From: Chrysemys picta bellii
Taxonomy: Eukaryota; Chordata; Testudines; Emydidae
DNA: 64,000 nucleotides
Assembly (NCBI RefSeq): GCF_011386835.1
Contig: NC_088795.1
Location: 13,435,441 to 13,499,440, forward strand
Reading direction: 5' to 3'
The notes under the pieces: generated by a model
The model's database searches: none
The model's input: only the letters and a program-made list of their open reading frames with translations
Told to the model about the DNA's origin: nothing
In this document: piece after piece, positions 322 through 57,247 of the stretch
How positions within the stretch are numbered: position 1 is the first letter of the stretch
Layout: every line of letters starts with the position of its first letter
Program-made: the position numbers and the translations under genes

Positions 322-333
322 TTTGTGCTAATA

Positions 334-549
334 ACAGGTTTCAGAGTAGCAGCCGTGTTAGTCTGTATCCGCAAAAAGAACAGGAGTACTTGTGGCACCT
401 TAGAGACTAACACATTTATTAGAGCATAAGCTTTCGTGGGCTACTGCCCACTTCTTCGAATGCATCCGAAGAAGTGGGCAGTAGCCCACGAAAGCTTATG
501 CTCTAATAAATGTGTTAGTCTCTAAGGTGCCACAAGTACTCCTGTTCTT
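334..549. mobile_element. Penelope-like retroelement terminus, inverted palindrome
   Basis: Seen: bases 372-553 form a near-perfect inverted repeat centred on ATGCAT at 460-465, with arms of about 91 bp and one mismatch (459/466). The unit begins with a single-copy lead (gtttcagagtagcagc) and then reads into both arms. A 12-bp direct repeat, TTTGTGCTAATA, flanks it at 322-333 and 550-561, which I read as the target-site duplication. Known: this terminal sequence is abundant in turtle and crocodilian genomes, and I recognise it as the end of Penelope-like elements, whose pseudo-LTRs occur in inverted or tandem arrangement. No reverse-transcriptase coding sequence is present, so this is a terminal-only, non-autonomous insertion. 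Confidence 0.75.
466..503 (+). ncRNA. Hammerhead-ribozyme-like motif in Penelope terminus
   Basis: Read as RNA: CCGAAGA (466-472, matching CUGANGA except U4 to C), one unpaired A (473), a six-base stem II GUGGGC/GCCCAC (474-479 with 484-489) closed by AGUA, then GAAA (490-493). Stem III is A-G-C (493-495) pairing with G-C-U (500-502) across the loop UUAU, and the next base, C503, sits where the cleavage-site nucleotide belongs. Because the element is a palindrome, the minus strand carries a similar core with C3 changed. Penelope-like elements are known to encode hammerhead motifs. Here the U4 change and the extra A suggest a decayed or weak ribozyme. Activity is inference. Confidence 0.5.
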
Positions 550-561
550 TTTGTGCTAATA

Positions 562-36329: not shown

Positions 36330-36469
36330 CAGGCCCTAACTTAGTAACTTTTTTATAGAAGTGTAACAAATACTTGTTTAAAACAGTAAGTATTGTTCTG
36401 GATTATACTAGCAGCTACTTGGCTGTGCATTCTCAAATCTCTTGGATTTCAGCATGAAAATAACATGAA

Positions 36470-37214
36470 GTAATTCTTCCACTCTACTCTGTGCTGATTA
36501 GGCCTCAACTGGAGCATTGTGTCCAGTTCTGGGCACCACTCTTCAGGAAAGATATGGACAAATTAGAGACAGTCCAGAGAAGAGCAACAAAAATGATTAC
36601 AAGTCTAGAAAACATGACCTATGAGGGAAGAATGGGGAAAAAATTGGGTTTGTTTAGCCTGGAGAAGAGAAGATCTGAGTGGGGGCCTAACAGTTTTCAA
36701 GTAATAAAAGGTTGTTACAAGGAGGAGGGAGAAAAATTGTTCTCTTTAAACTCTGAAGATAGGAGAAGAAGCAATGGGCTTAAATTGCAGGAAGGGTGGT
36801 TTCGGTTGACATCAGGAAAGATCTTCCTAACTCTCAGAGTGGTTAAGTACTGGAATAAATTGCCTAGGGAGGTTGTGGAATCTCCATCATTGGAGATTTT
36901 AAAGAGCAGGTTACACAAACACCTGTCAGGGATGGTCTAGATAATACTTAGGGCATGTCTTCACTAGCAATGTTAAAGCGCTGCCATGGCAACGCTTTAA
37001 CGTGGCTGTGTAGTCGCGGCACCTGTGTTGAGAGAGAGAGCTCTCCCAGTGCTACAAAAAACCCACCTCCACGAGGGGTGTAGCTACCAGTGCTGGTGCA
37101 TTGTCTATACTGGTGCTTTACAGTGCTGAAACTTGCAGCGCTCAGGGGTGTGCCATGAGTGCAGGGGACTGGACTAGATGACCTTTTGAGGTCCCTTCCA
37201 GTCCTATGATTCTA
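36470..37214 (+). mobile_element. CR1 LINE 3' end (reverse-transcriptase C-terminus and 3' UTR)
   Basis: The frame 36491-36940 (149 codons, intact) encodes the end of the CR1 ORF2 protein: RPQLEHCVQFWAPLF, VQRRATKMI, LGLFSLEKRR and a final YWNKLPREVVESPSLEIL. The stop lies at the usual position, followed by 3' UTR and the terminal 'tcctatgattcta'. It is 5' truncated: all of the endonuclease and the catalytic part of the reverse transcriptase are missing. A MITE interrupts the UTR (36951-37151). Confidence 0.9.
36951..37151. mobile_element. Harbinger-like MITE fragment nested in CR1 UTR
   Basis: Begins GGGCATGTCTTCACTAGC immediately after CTTA of the CR1 UTR, and contains 'taaagcgctgccatggcaac' and 'gaaacttgcagcgctcaggg'. 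The right terminus and the second TTA are lost, together with a few CR1 bases. Confidence 0.75.
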
Positions 37215-44577: not shown

Positions 44578-46599
44578 AAGTTTGTACTTTCCTTCCATTG
44601 AAAAGAACATGAGGTCAAAGTAGTCTTCAGAATTTGTAAAATAGTTTGTTCCCATACGTGTTATAACCATTTGAAAGCATGAACCCACTGATGGCGATTG
44701 GAGGGCAGCCTGTGAGTGCTAAGCCACTGGTAGCTTTTTTTGAAAGAGCGCATGGAAAACGTTCCTTCTGACATGGAATCCAGAGGGGACAGATCTTCAG
44801 GTGCTCAGTAATCACTATTGGGGAGGGGGGGCAGATTTTCAAAAGTGCTCTGCACCCCAACTGGCCACTCACTTTTAACAGTGAGGGGTTACTGGGCAAC
44901 ATGAGAGATGAGGGATATATTGGTGATTGAGAATTGGGTCTAAACTAGTCTCTCATTTAAAAAAAACAAAACAAAGGCAGTGACATTTCCAGTAACTCTG
45001 ACTAGTGGCAAAAAGAACAGGAGTACTTGTGGCACCTTAGAGACTAGTGGGTTGTCTTAGACTCCTCTGTGGCATTTTGTGTGAAGTGGGCACCAGCAAA
45101 TAATGAGAGATGGACATAGCAATGATTCACAAGCTTGCTTTAGGTTTCTGCCCCCGTCAGTACAACAAACTCTCTCCTCAGTAGCACTCTTCTGGGGTCC
45201 AAATGGCAGAGGAACCTATTTGTACTGAATGTAGGGCGGCGCACTAATATGGACTGTGATAAGCTGAGAATCCATCATGTCATTTTATGTCAATCTGTAC
45301 ATGTCTCTTTTTAACTACAAACCTCAATGACTAAGAAGAGATTTGAGTACCTGGGGGATTAGTCTTCTGGGATTAAGGCTAGTAAAATGCTCCAGCACTG
45401 TGTACTGACTGGGGAATCAAAACCCCATTAAACCAGAACTTCACCATTACCACTGCACCCCAGCAGCACTCTAAAGTGTCTGTGCTAATATAGGTTCTTG
45501 CAGATCACTGAGTTTTAGGGCAAACTCCTGCCCTGACTCTCCCAAGTTGTACAGGGGGTGGAAAGAAGTTGGGCTGCTGCAGCAGAGTATATGGTTCAGG
45601 ACCCATCCTGCCAAGGGAGGAAATGATCACTCATGAGGGTCCAGAGTTAATACATCTCACCACCTTCCTTACTGCTACTACGAAAGAATGTGCTTCCCTC
45701 CCCCAGTTCCTGCTACCAGCCTCCGTTTTCACCCGTGACGAGGCCTGGGACATGGCCAGGTTCCAAGCTGATTGCCCACCTCTCTGTGGTACTGTGGAGT
45801 GTCAATAGGGTTGTTAGCTGGGCATATTTCCTGGCCCTGAATTGAGCACACAGTCCACAAGCGGCGAGTGGGGTTCTGAGCCCTATTCCTACTCCATACT
45901 CTCATTCACACAGGACTTTGTTCATTGCATCTAACACTGGAATGCAATGCCTAGAACTGTACACAGGACCCCTCAAAACCTTAACACTCATCCTTTATGG
46001 AAGGAGTGAGAACTGAATAAAAATGAGTGTACAGAACAACAGCCAGCGGTTAGATTTCTCTCAGGAGCCTCCTGTTCTATTCCTGAACTGGCCCACAGGC
46101 CTGCTTCACTTGTGAGAGCTGTACAACCGCTTCGAAGCTTGAGGTGGAGTGAGAACTGATGGCGAACAGGTCCTGTCTTCTTCCTGTACTGGGATCCCCT
46201 GAAGCCTTTCTACCAACAGAGGCTGCAGCTTAGATTGTGAACATGAAATTCTGTCCTTTCCAGTTAGGTCACACTGAATGAGTTATGAAGCCACAAAACT
46301 TTATTATAAAAATTGCCTGTCTAAATGAGGAAAGCACATTGTTTCTGAAAATGTGCTAGCTAATATGTTTTAACACCTGCATTTAAAAAACCTTAGCATG
46401 GACAGGGAAAGTCCTGCTTAAACACAAAGTAGTTGAGGTCCATCCTCTCCTCTTACAGCTGACCTCCATTGGCTAACAGGTGAAGAATCAACAGGCCTGT
46501 CGCCAGACCAGATCCAGAGAACAGAAATGTGCTGTCTGACAGGAGCAAGGATATGAGATGGGGACAGGAGACTAAGAGGATCCTGATGGGAGCGGGGAA
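44578..46599. other. No gene recognised, apart from a 33-bp Penelope insertion
   Basis: Unassigned sequence with scattered short frames. The small Penelope piece at 45009-45041 is listed separately. Confidence 0.3.
45009..45041 (+). mobile_element. Minute Penelope-like insertion
   Basis: 'caaaaagaacaggagtactt' followed by 'gtggcaccttaga' is the same terminal sequence as at 372-410. It is flanked by exact 9-bp repeats GACTAGTGG (45000-45008 and 45042-45050), of which GACTA is also element sequence. Confidence 0.65.
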
Positions 46600-50473: not shown

Positions 50474-52839
50474 ACATAACATAAGAATGGCCCTACTGGG
50501 TCAGACCAAAGGTCCATCTAGCCTAGTATCCTGTCTTCCAACAGTGGCCAGTGCCAGGTGCCCCAGAGGGAATGAACAGTACAGGTTATCATCAAGTGAT
50601 CCATCCCCTGTCGCTCATTCCCAGCTTCTGGCAAACCGAGGCTAGGGACACCATTCCTGCCCATCCTGGCTAATAGCCATTGATGGACCTATCCTCCATG
50701 AATTTATCTAGTTCTTTTTTGAACCCTGTTATGGTCTTGGCCTTCACAACATCCTCTGGCAAGGAGTTCCACAGGTTGACTGTGCATTGTGTGAAGAAAT
50801 ACTTCCTTTTATTTGTTTTAAACTTGCTGCCTATTAATTTCATTTGGTGCCCCCTAGTTCTTGTGTTATGAGGAGGAGTAAACAACATTTCCTTATCTAC
50901 TTTCTCTACACCAGTCATGATTTTATAGACCTCAATCATATCTCCCCTTAGCTGTCTCTTTTTTCAAGCTGAAAAGTCCCAGTCTTTTAAATCTCTCCTC
51001 ATACAGAAGCCGTTCCAGACTCCTAATCTTCTTTGTTGCCCTTTTCTGAACCTTTTCCAATTCCAATCTTTTTTGAGATGGGGCAACCACATCTGCACAC
51101 AGTATTCAAGATGTGGGCATACCATGGATTTATATAGAGGCAACATGATATTTTCTGTCCTATTATCTATCCCTTTCTTAATTATTCCCAGCATTCTGTT
51201 CGCTTTTTTTGACTGCCGCTGCACACTGAGTGGATGTTTTCAGAGAACTATCCACAATGACTCCAAGATCTTTCTTGAGTGGTAACAACTAATTTAGACC
51301 CCATCATTTTATATGTATAGTTGGGATTATGCTTTCCAACGTGCATTACTTTGCATTTATCAACATTAAATTTCATCTGTCGTTTTGTTGCCCAGTCACC
51401 CAGTTTTGAGAGATCCTTTTGTAGCCCTTCGTAGTCTGCCTGGATCTTAATTATCTTTAGTAATTTTGTATCATCTGCAAATTTTGCCACCTCACTGTTT
51501 ACCCCTTTTTCCAGATCATTTATGAATATGTTGAATAGGACTGTTCCCAGAACAGACCTCTGGGGGACACCACTATTTACCTCTCTCCATTCTGAAAACT
51601 GACTATTTATACCTACCCTTTGTTTCCTATCTTTTAACCAGTTATCAATCCATGAGAGCACCTTCCCTCTTATCCCATGGCACCCTACTTTGTGTAAGTG
51701 CCTTTGGTGAGGGACCTTGTCAAGGGCTTTCTGGAAAATTTAAGTACACTTGGTCCACATGCTTGTTGACTCCCTCAAAGAATTCTAGTAGATTGGTGAC
51801 GCATGCTTTCCCTTTATTAAAACCATGTTGACTCTTCTTCAACAAATTGTTTATCTATATGTCTGACACTATTGTCCTTTATTTTAGTTTTCCTGGTATT
51901 GAAGTCAGGCTTACAAGCCTGTAATTGCCAGGGTCACCTCTGGAGCCCTTTTAAAAAATTGGCGTCACATTAGCTATCCTCCAGTCATCTGGTACAGAAG
52001 CTGATTTAAATGATAGGTTACAGACGACCGTTAGTAGTTCTGAAGGAACTCAAATGTGAAATTGCAGAACTCTTGGGTGAATACCATCTGGTCCTGGTGA
52101 CTTATTGCTGTTTAATTTATCAATTTGTTCCAAAACCTTCTCTAAAGATACCTCAATCTGGGACAGTTCCTCAGATCTGTCACCTAAAAAGAATGGGTGA
52201 GCTTTGCGAATCTCCCTCACATCCTCAGCCATGAAGACTGATGCAAATAATTCATTTAGTTTCTCCGCAATGGCCTTATCCTTGAATGCTCCTTTAGCAC
52301 CTCGATCGTGATTGGCCCCACATGTTGTTTAGCAGGCTTCCTGCTTCTGATGTACTTTAAAAAAAAAATTGCTATTACTTTTTAAGTCTTTGGCTAACTG
52401 TTCCTCAAATTCTTTTTTTGGCCTTCCTAATTGTATTTTTACACTTCATTTGCCAGTGTTTATGCTCCTTTCTATTTTCCGCGGTAGGATTTAACTTCCA
52501 CTTTTTAAAGGATGCCTTTTTGCCTCTCACTGCTTCTTTTACTTTGTTGTTTAACCACAATGGCTCTCTTTTTGGTTCTCTGACTATGTTTATTAATTTG
52601 GGGTATACATTTAAGTTGAGCCTCTATTACGGTGTCTTTTAAAAAGTTTCCATGCAGCTTGCAGAGATTTCACTTTTGGCACTGTGCCTTTTAATTTCTG
52701 TTTAACTGACCTCCTCATTTTTGTGTAGTTCCCCTTTCTGAAATTAAATGCTACCATGTTGGGCCACTGAGGTGTTTTTCTTGTCACAGGGATGTTAAAT
52801 TCAATTATATTATGGTCACTAATTATATTATTGGCCTTA
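50474..52839 (-). mobile_element. CR1 LINE, 2.4 kb, minus strand (ORF2 end plus 3' UTR)
   Basis: On the minus strand, in order: endonuclease end (SDHNIIEFNIPV at about 52810-52790), linker, SNKSPGPDGIHPRVL (near 52090), reverse-transcriptase blocks SWIDNWLKDRKQRVGINS, NSGVPQRSVLGTVLFNIFINDL and the catalytic box KFADDTKLL (about 51470-51484), then YKSMVCPHLEYCVQMW, and the end [21 protein letters not shown]. The 3' UTR ends 'catctagcctag...' near 50510. The catalytic aspartates are kept, but frameshifts split the protein into at least five frames. The 5' end is cut by the MITE at 52840. Confidence 0.92.
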
Positions 52840-56733: not shown

Positions 56734-56828
56734 TTATAGGTGAAATTATCAGGGGGTAGCAGTGTTAGTCTGTATCCACAAAAACAACAAGGAGTCCGGT
56801 AGCACCTTAAAGACTAACAGATTTATTT

Positions 56829-56867
56829 GGGCATAAGCTTTCATGGGTAAAAAAACCCCTTCTTCAG
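56829..56867 (-). ncRNA. Hammerhead-ribozyme-like motif, minus strand
   Basis: On the minus strand: CUGAAGA (867-861, all conserved core positions present), a short stem II GGGU/ACCC with a U-rich loop, then GAAA (842-839). Stem III is reduced to G-C/G-C around the loop UUAU, because the closing U16.1 has become C. The next base is C (complement of 56829), the possible cleavage position. Better core but weaker stems than the motif at 466-503. Confidence 0.45.
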
Positions 56868-56903
56868 GTGCATCTGAAAGCTTATGCCCAAATAAATCTG
56901 TTA

Positions 56904-57197
56904 GGGCTGGTCCACACTATCCCCCCAGTTTGAATTATATACGCAACTTCAGCTGCGTGAATAACTTAGCTGAAGTCGAAGTACCTTAGTTCGAACTACA
57001 AAGTACTTACCGCGGGTCCACACGCGGCAGGCAGGCTCCCCCGTCAACTCCGCGTACTCCTCTCGCGGAGCAGGAGTACCAGCGTCGACGGCGAGCACTT
57101 CCGGGATCGATTTATCGCGTCTAGACAAGACGCGATAAATCGATCCCTGAAGATGGATTGCTTACTGCCGAACCCGGAGGTAAGTATAGACGTACCC
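56904..57197. mobile_element. Harbinger-like MITE nested in Penelope-like copy
   Basis: Ends GGGCTGGTCCACACT and AGTATAGACGTACCC. Exact TTA on both sides (56901-56903 and 57198-57200). Removing it rejoins the Penelope arm 'ctgttagtctttaagg'. The interior has 'gtcgacggcgagc' and the hairpin 'gatcgatttatcgcgtc...gacgcgataaatcgatc' (57106-57146). Confidence 0.9.
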
Positions 57198-57247
57198 TTA
57201 GTCTTTAAGGTGCCACCGGACTCCTTGTTGTTGTTATGGGTGAAATT

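Follow-up and report, generated by a model that had tools for sequence, protein, structure and literature searches.

How Penelope-like elements complete their insertion is an unsolved question. The later steps of the process have been called not yet validated (PMC11167929), and two ideas bear on the palindromes that these elements leave behind, namely self-priming, which is a published account, and the extension of both target strands from two start sites, which comes from newer biochemistry. A short palindromic insertion in the genome of the turtle Chrysemys picta bellii, close to the beginning of a stretch of 64,000 nucleotides (NC_088795.1, 13,435,441 to 13,499,440; hereafter the window), raises this question anew. 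It had been read from its letters as a Penelope insertion with a hammerhead-like core on both strands. Here we ask what kind of element it is, whether a ribozyme is at work in it, and how a palindrome of this shape might be formed. The three related insertions in the window bear marks that separate the two ideas, i.e., unequal outer ends, a shared tail-less end, and a fixed self-complementary seam, and a genome-wide count in C. picta bellii could directly test self-priming against two-sided priming. The remaining interest of the locus is mechanistic; as a ribozyme find it adds little.

Architecture of the Palindromic Insertion

The insertion, referred to as copy 1, consists of the following features. 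For the arms and the tail, the strand is the one on which the element reads in RNA sense.

322..333, no strand: left target site duplication of 12 bp (TTTGTGCTAATA); direct-repeat search and random-flank test
334..371, minus strand: one-sided “tail” of 38 nt, the RNA-sense 3′ end of arm 1; repeat search and flank comparison
372..462, minus strand: arm 1, a pseudo-LTR unit; inverted-repeat search and alignments
460..465, no strand: seam, self-complementary ATGCAT, at which the units meet head to head with 0 spacer; inverted-repeat search and alignments
463..553, plus strand: arm 2, the pseudo-LTR unit of arm 1 without the tail, ending in ...GTTCTTTTTG; inverted-repeat search and alignments
550..561, no strand: right target site duplication (TTTGTGCTAATA); direct-repeat search and random-flank test

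An inverted-repeat search gives two arms of 91 nt each that are alike at 90 of 91 positions (99% complementary), with 0 nt between them. The target site duplication is exact (12/12 bp, 322-333 versus 550-561), and an exact 12-mer was common to 1 of 5000 pairs of random 24-nt flanks drawn from the window. The inverted repeat with 91-bp arms inside a 12-bp target duplication, as described in the original prediction, is confirmed by these analyses. The span given there (334-561) contains a real insertion but takes in the right target site duplication, which arm 2 overlaps by 4 nt (TTTG, 550-553). Copy 1 is asymmetric, as 334-371 lengthens arm 1 by 38 nt, or by 33 nt if the outer ACAGG is left uncounted. 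These five bases (334-338) separate the target duplication from the portion of the tail that recurs in a second copy described below, and are either the end of the element or bases added at the junction. An AC-rich stretch of the tail, AGACUAACAC, is able to pair with GUGUUAGUCU in the arm, that is, within the unit.

The longest stop-free stretch overlapping 334-553 in any frame comprises 57 codons (518-688, mostly outside of the element), and an ORF for reverse transcriptase and GIY-YIG endonuclease is absent from 334-553. Such a maximum excludes an autonomous element, leaves room for a pseudo-LTR fragment, and is what would be expected of a non-autonomous copy. Together with the exact 12-bp repeat, it bears out the earlier description of a short non-coding insertion with a target duplication.

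Two Further Insertions in the Window

Searches with BLAST and nhmmer within the window identify two insertions besides copy 1, i.e., a total of three from one window. When a profile built from the window's own copies was used, nhmmer reported six hits above the inclusion threshold, all of them inside the three copies, and two further hits below that threshold (E 3.1 and 8). Exact unit patterns gave 0 matches in viral and prokaryotic contigs, where none are expected, and the element had no match among phage records, a collection not expected to hold host sequence.

56734..57247, no strand: copy 2, a second palindromic insertion; BLAST, nhmmer, alignments and flank test
56734-56747 and 57234-57247, no strand: target site duplication of copy 2, 13/14 matching; flank test
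56748-56778, minus strand: tail of copy 2, 31 nt, on arm 1 only; flank comparison
56779-56870, minus strand: arm 1 of copy 2; alignment
56868-56873, no strand: seam of copy 2, RTGCAY, as in copy 1; alignment
56871-57233, plus strand: arm 2 of copy 2, without tail and with stem II of the hammerhead-like motif (see below) deleted; alignment
56905-57197, no strand: later insertion of about 293 bp inside arm 2 of copy 2, with TTAG on both sides; nhmmer and alignment
45000..45050, minus strand: copy 3, a single-sided, non-palindromic 35-nt piece of the 3′ part of the unit (45009-45043); BLAST and alignment
45000-45008 and 45042-45050, no strand: target site duplication of copy 3 (GACTAGTGG), 9/9; flank test

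Copy 2 repeats the layout of copy 1 (head-to-head units, the same seam, a one-sided tail) at about 81% identity and at a different site, and a match of 13/14 as in its target duplication was reached by 3 of 5000 random flank pairs. Where the tail-less end of copy 2 has GTTGTTG, its other arm has GTTGTTTTTG, a difference of 3 nt. In both palindromes the tail is present on one arm only, with 38 nt in copy 1 and 31 nt in copy 2. Copy 3 is identical to copy 1 over 35/35 nt, and both end at the same base (TTTTTG; ...GTTCTTTTTG), which in copy 1 is the end of the tail-less arm 2; a shared word of at least 9 nt, as in the target duplication of copy 3, was encountered in 12 of 5000 random flank pairs. 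At the other end of copy 3, GACTA is common to unit and target; judged from these letters, the 5′ junction looks like microhomology joining, and copy 3 looks single-primed.

The arms are more alike within than between copies. In addition to the 90/91 of copy 1, the arms of copy 2 agree at 65/67 positions over three pieces (5/6 in the seam, 30/30, and 30/31), a count in which neither the stem II deletion nor the 3 nt by which the right ends differ in length is included. Local alignments between copies give 75/93 for arm 2 of copy 1 versus arm 1 of copy 2, 93/114 for arm 1 versus arm 1 with the tail included, and 26/29 and 30/34 for the remaining ones.

A Hammerhead-Like Stretch That Is Most Likely Inactive

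The conserved core of a type I hammerhead consists of CUGANGA ... GAAA ... UH. Two stretches of copy 1 resemble it.

466..503, plus strand: hammerhead-like core of arm 2, with CCGAAGA (466-472), an unpaired A473, stem II (474-489), GAAA (490-493), stem III (493-502), and C503; descriptor and base-by-base folding check
422..459, minus strand: hammerhead-like motif of arm 1, UCGAAGA, with two core changes; descriptor and folding check

The letters to which the original prediction drew attention are present as it stated, C503 at the presumed cleavage position included, but their reading as a ribozyme is weak. Copy 1 retains the greater part of the core, arm 2 departing from it at U4 alone. Both of its arms carry C in place of U4, and arm 1 has in addition U in place of C3. 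Stem II, of 6 bp in arm 2, starts one base late and is out of register at its base, leaving A473 unpaired. Stem III of arm 2 comprises 3 bp (AGC/UUAU/GCU) and is followed by C503, and the first three positions of stem I are unpaired in all three arms that were checked. Arm 1 of copy 2 has a full CUGAAGA...GAAA, but carries C at position 16.1, and in arm 2 of copy 2 stem II and the bulk of the core are missing.

No Rfam hammerhead was found in the whole window at the gathering score, the one level at which copy 2 was covered. The Rfam hammerhead search on both strands, which had been proposed as a check on the prediction, gave no match on either strand of 300-620 at E ≤ 10; as the run included no positive control from a known minimal Penelope hammerhead, this counts as weak evidence where the family is concerned. 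A home-made hammerhead descriptor, lenient enough to accept the extra A, was compared with 40 dinucleotide shuffles. With at most one core mismatch it reports two sites in the window versus 0.68 expected (maximum of 2 in shuffles), and with at most two core mismatches seven sites versus 4.4 expected (maximum of 9), while missing copy 2. As these counts are within the range of the shuffles, the motif alone is not above chance, and its occurrence on both strands follows from the palindrome and does not constitute independent evidence.

The predicted cleavage site is crossed unbroken by all four arms of the two palindromes, copy 3 stopping short of the site, so that the template RNA was intact at this position. 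Uncut arms fit the results for PAc, a Poseidon-type Penelope-like element of Anolis carolinensis, the hammerhead of which is protein-dependent; mutating the PAc hammerhead leaves insertion normal, and the substrate is mainly RNA that has not been processed (PMC11167929). Minimal type I hammerheads, usually lacking helix III, are conserved in Penelope pseudo-LTRs, where their role is described as unknown (PMC6155905; PMC7761336), and this conservation, the core letters kept in copy 1, and the CUGAAGA...GAAA of copy 2 are what would speak for processing of the element RNA by an active type I hammerhead on both strands. However, those published minimal forms may cleave as direct tandem dimers (PMC7761336), an arrangement that a head-to-head pair does not offer. 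Considering also the missing Rfam match, a descriptor that is not above chance and blind to copy 2, the absent stem I, the shifted stem II, U4C, the four uncut arms, and the protein dependence and dispensability of the PAc hammerhead, we regard a working ribozyme as very improbable. The hammerhead-like stretch was plausibly inherited from a pseudo-LTR and has decayed, and in copy 1 it is most likely inactive. The hammerhead was rejected as the main feature of the locus on account of the Rfam result, the chance-level descriptor counts, and the lack of stem I in three arms; neither was the element placed among type I hammerheads, from which it departs in its core and its helices as well as in having no Rfam match.

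Folding calculations agree with one further point of the original prediction, i.e., that a full-length transcript would form a duplex of about 90 bp competing with the ribozyme fold. As a single strand the palindrome is predicted to fold at -183.8 kcal/mol, versus a shuffle mean of -57.1 (z -29.5). The pair probabilities of stems II and III are 0.84-1.0 in one arm alone versus 0.0 in the full palindrome, and forcing these stems in arm 2 within the palindrome costs 42 kcal/mol (-141.5 versus -183.8). Three other Rfam matches were discarded. The match to mir-569 at 418-507 (40.8 bits, E 6e-07, gathering score 110) was taken as a long-hairpin effect, and matches in the element region to SSRC38 (22.6 bits versus a gathering score of 80) and FTX_2 (15.5 bits versus 48) were taken as chance. 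The mir-569 case illustrates that long perfect palindromes may raise the scores of miRNA models.

Relationship to Known Penelope-Like Elements

We file copy 1 as a non-autonomous, coding-free Penelope-like pseudo-LTR insertion in the form of a head-to-head duplicate, a class assigned from its architecture and not from a sequence match. The family name Penelope is one that we assume for this element. What had been called a Penelope insertion agrees with that name in its head-to-head pseudo-LTRs, its one-sided tail, and its target duplication. Penelope-like pseudo-LTRs occur as inverted or tandem units with a tail of 30-40 bp on some copies; here the units are inverted, and tails of 38 and 31 nt are found on one arm each. 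Short target site duplications accompany all three insertions (12/12, 13/14, and 9/9). Copy 1 is a tidy example of an insertion kind that has already been described.

In Adineta vaga, Penelope elements (Pen2a_Av and others) are reported to possess inverted pseudo-LTRs arranged head to head. Their junctions are palindromic, one member of the inverted pair bears a 31-bp tail, and the target duplications measure 8-10 bp; solo pseudo-LTRs, pseudo-LTR structures without a Penelope ORF, and pseudo-LTR structures that moved other sequences are known as well (PMC3846280). The insertions in the window share with them the inverted head-to-head units, the junction palindrome, the tail on one copy, and a short target duplication, which here measures 9-14 bp. 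In contrast to the A. vaga elements described there, nothing lies between or beside the two units, and there is no ORF and no third pseudo-LTR. The seam is the 6-bp ATGCAT versus palindromes of 18 and 38 bp in two families (PMC3846280), and the host is a vertebrate.

The purified protein of PAc cuts and extends both target strands, and its reverse transcription begins internally at two adjacent sites, the stretch between them being the tail, which has 30-40 bp and is present in a fraction of copies (PMC11167929). No difference in start sites between the two target strands and no palindromic product are reported in the main text of that study. PAc most often starts within an AC-rich stem-loop, at +111 to +118 as counted in nt along the ORF, and the cut by its hammerhead lies at +26 (PMC11167929). 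Similarly, in the present insertions two start sites would bound the tail, an AC-rich stem-loop would lie at the main start, and a hammerhead motif is situated 5′ of it. In PAc a coding ORF runs through the region, whereas here stop-free stretches do not surpass the 57 codons given above, and the PAc hammerhead has stems I and II, whereas stem I is lacking here and a short stem III hairpin is found instead (PMC11167929). The distance from cut to start in PAc, 85-92 nt by subtraction, fits the outer end of the tail (83-88 nt in copy 1 and 81 nt in copy 2, as measured from predicted cuts at C422 on the minus strand and at 56829, respectively) but not the tail-less end (50 nt). As PMC11167929 does not say which of the starts lies at +111, this agreement is ambiguous and suggestive only.

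Metazoan retrozymes, described as small direct tandem repeats with canonical type I hammerheads and circular RNAs (PMC7229834), resemble the element in being short non-coding retroelements with a type I hammerhead motif that are possibly moved by Penelope proteins. They differ in their repeats and in their hammerheads from the single inverted pair and the degenerate motif found here, and an assignment of the element to retrozymes was rejected on these two points.

Proposed Two-Sided Priming and the Origin of the Palindrome

The explanation that we prefer, and hold to be somewhat more probable than an even chance, is that copy 1 is a head-to-head pseudo-LTR duplicate made by two-sided priming and the joining of two cDNAs. 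The element protein, presumably a GIY-YIG Penelope polyprotein supplied in trans, would cut both target strands 12 nt apart and leave two 3′ ends, each of which would prime reverse transcription on a pseudo-LTR RNA. One side might start at the distal site, thereby keeping the tail, and the other at the proximal site, ending in ...TTTTTG. Both cDNAs would run to the same RNA 5′ end, to which the seam would correspond, and their 3′ ends would anneal via the self-complementary ATGCAT and be filled in and sealed, giving a spacer-free palindrome within a target duplication. In terms of DNA strands, the left outer end corresponds to antisense cDNA extended from the 3′ end of the top strand, following the target duplication. 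Its counterpart on the right corresponds to antisense cDNA extended from the 3′ end of the bottom strand, and the two together argue for 12-nt 3′ overhangs and for priming on both sides.

Two-sided priming is favored by the palindromes, the target duplications, the seam shared at two sites, the one-sided tails, and the likeness of arms within copies. It is also favored by the agreement of copies 1 and 3 in their tail-less end, from which copy 2 deviates by 3 nt, and by the ability of the PAc protein to cut and extend both target strands from two starts (PMC11167929). The scheme is drawn from three insertions in one window. Against it speaks that start sites on the two target strands of PAc do not differ and that the main text of PMC11167929 mentions no palindromic product. 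Its extension to Penelope-like palindromes at large, i.e., two-sided target-primed reverse transcription that begins at both known start sites, each side using its own pseudo-LTR RNA, with the 6-nt ATGCAT at the RNA 5′ end joining the cDNAs and so programming head-to-head insertions of a short non-autonomous family, is put forward tentatively, with a chance that we place below even. No earlier statement of two-sided priming with cDNA-cDNA joining for Penelope-like elements was found in a limited literature search, largely of titles and abstract openings.

In the self-priming account (Arkhipova et al., 2013), the self-complementary end of an antisense pseudo-LTR RNA or of the first cDNA folds back and serves as primer for copying the same molecule, and the resulting palindrome is then integrated. 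This model has been published for head-to-head pseudo-LTRs with junction palindromes (PMC3846280) and would account for both the identity of arms within a copy and the fixed seam. However, it predicts equal outer extents, whereas each of the palindromes has a tail at just one of its ends. Moreover, the arm of copy 1 that lacks the tail and the single-sided copy 3 terminate at exactly the same base, an indication of a second initiation. In addition, a strand folding back on itself at ATGCAT alone would have no nucleotides to spare for a hairpin loop. We consider self-priming possible but unlikely for these insertions.

The original prediction suggested instead that the ribozyme-bearing palindrome itself had moved, so that a transcript across both arms would be reverse transcribed and inserted and palindromes would breed palindromes. 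That layout and seam are common to two of the three insertions in the window agrees with this idea. But inheritance of the palindrome as a unit would lead one to expect arms about as divergent as the copies, unless conversion homogenizes them, and the better match of arms within copies would therefore require homogenizing in each cycle; the tail is one-sided in both palindromes, and a transcript folding into a duplex of about 90 bp would presumably be a poor template. The comparison of arms favors a single event in which two cDNAs were made from the same or a similar RNA. Arms would likewise be kept alike by gene conversion within a palindrome, and a conversion-prone palindrome lineage is an alternative to two-sided priming that has to be kept in mind; palindromes that multiply as such seem improbable to us. 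We consider it extremely unlikely that the pair arose from two independent insertions into one site, from an inverted duplication at a later time, or as an artifact of assembly. A Penelope-like protein may in one scenario also target its own pseudo-LTR (PMC11167929), but a single target duplication encloses the pair, there is neither a spacer nor an inner duplication at the seam, the arms differ in length by exactly the tail, and copy 2 repeats the design in spite of the divergence between copies.

Other Elements in the Window

Copy 2 harbors the element at 56905-57197, which lies within TTAG/TTA and must have arrived after the insertion of copy 2. A relative of it is located at 1117-1331 (72% over 236 nt), and both are partly self-complementary and DNA-transposon-like. 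A tRNA-like sequence at 2892-2958 scores 42.2 bits, above the Rfam gathering score, and is not called by ARAGORN (bacterial code); it resembles a tRNA-Arg(CCT) in which the variable region is shortened, and is probably a pseudogene. Pfam searches covered 4 of the 46 listed frames. A reverse transcriptase fragment (RVT_1, E 5e-16), which we assume to be CR1-like, is encoded at 51248-51739 on the minus strand. This fragment and the low CpG ratio of the window (0.25) are in keeping with a vertebrate host, but indicate nothing narrower. The frame at 36464-36940 (plus strand) had no Pfam match, and we take it to be the end of a CR1 element.
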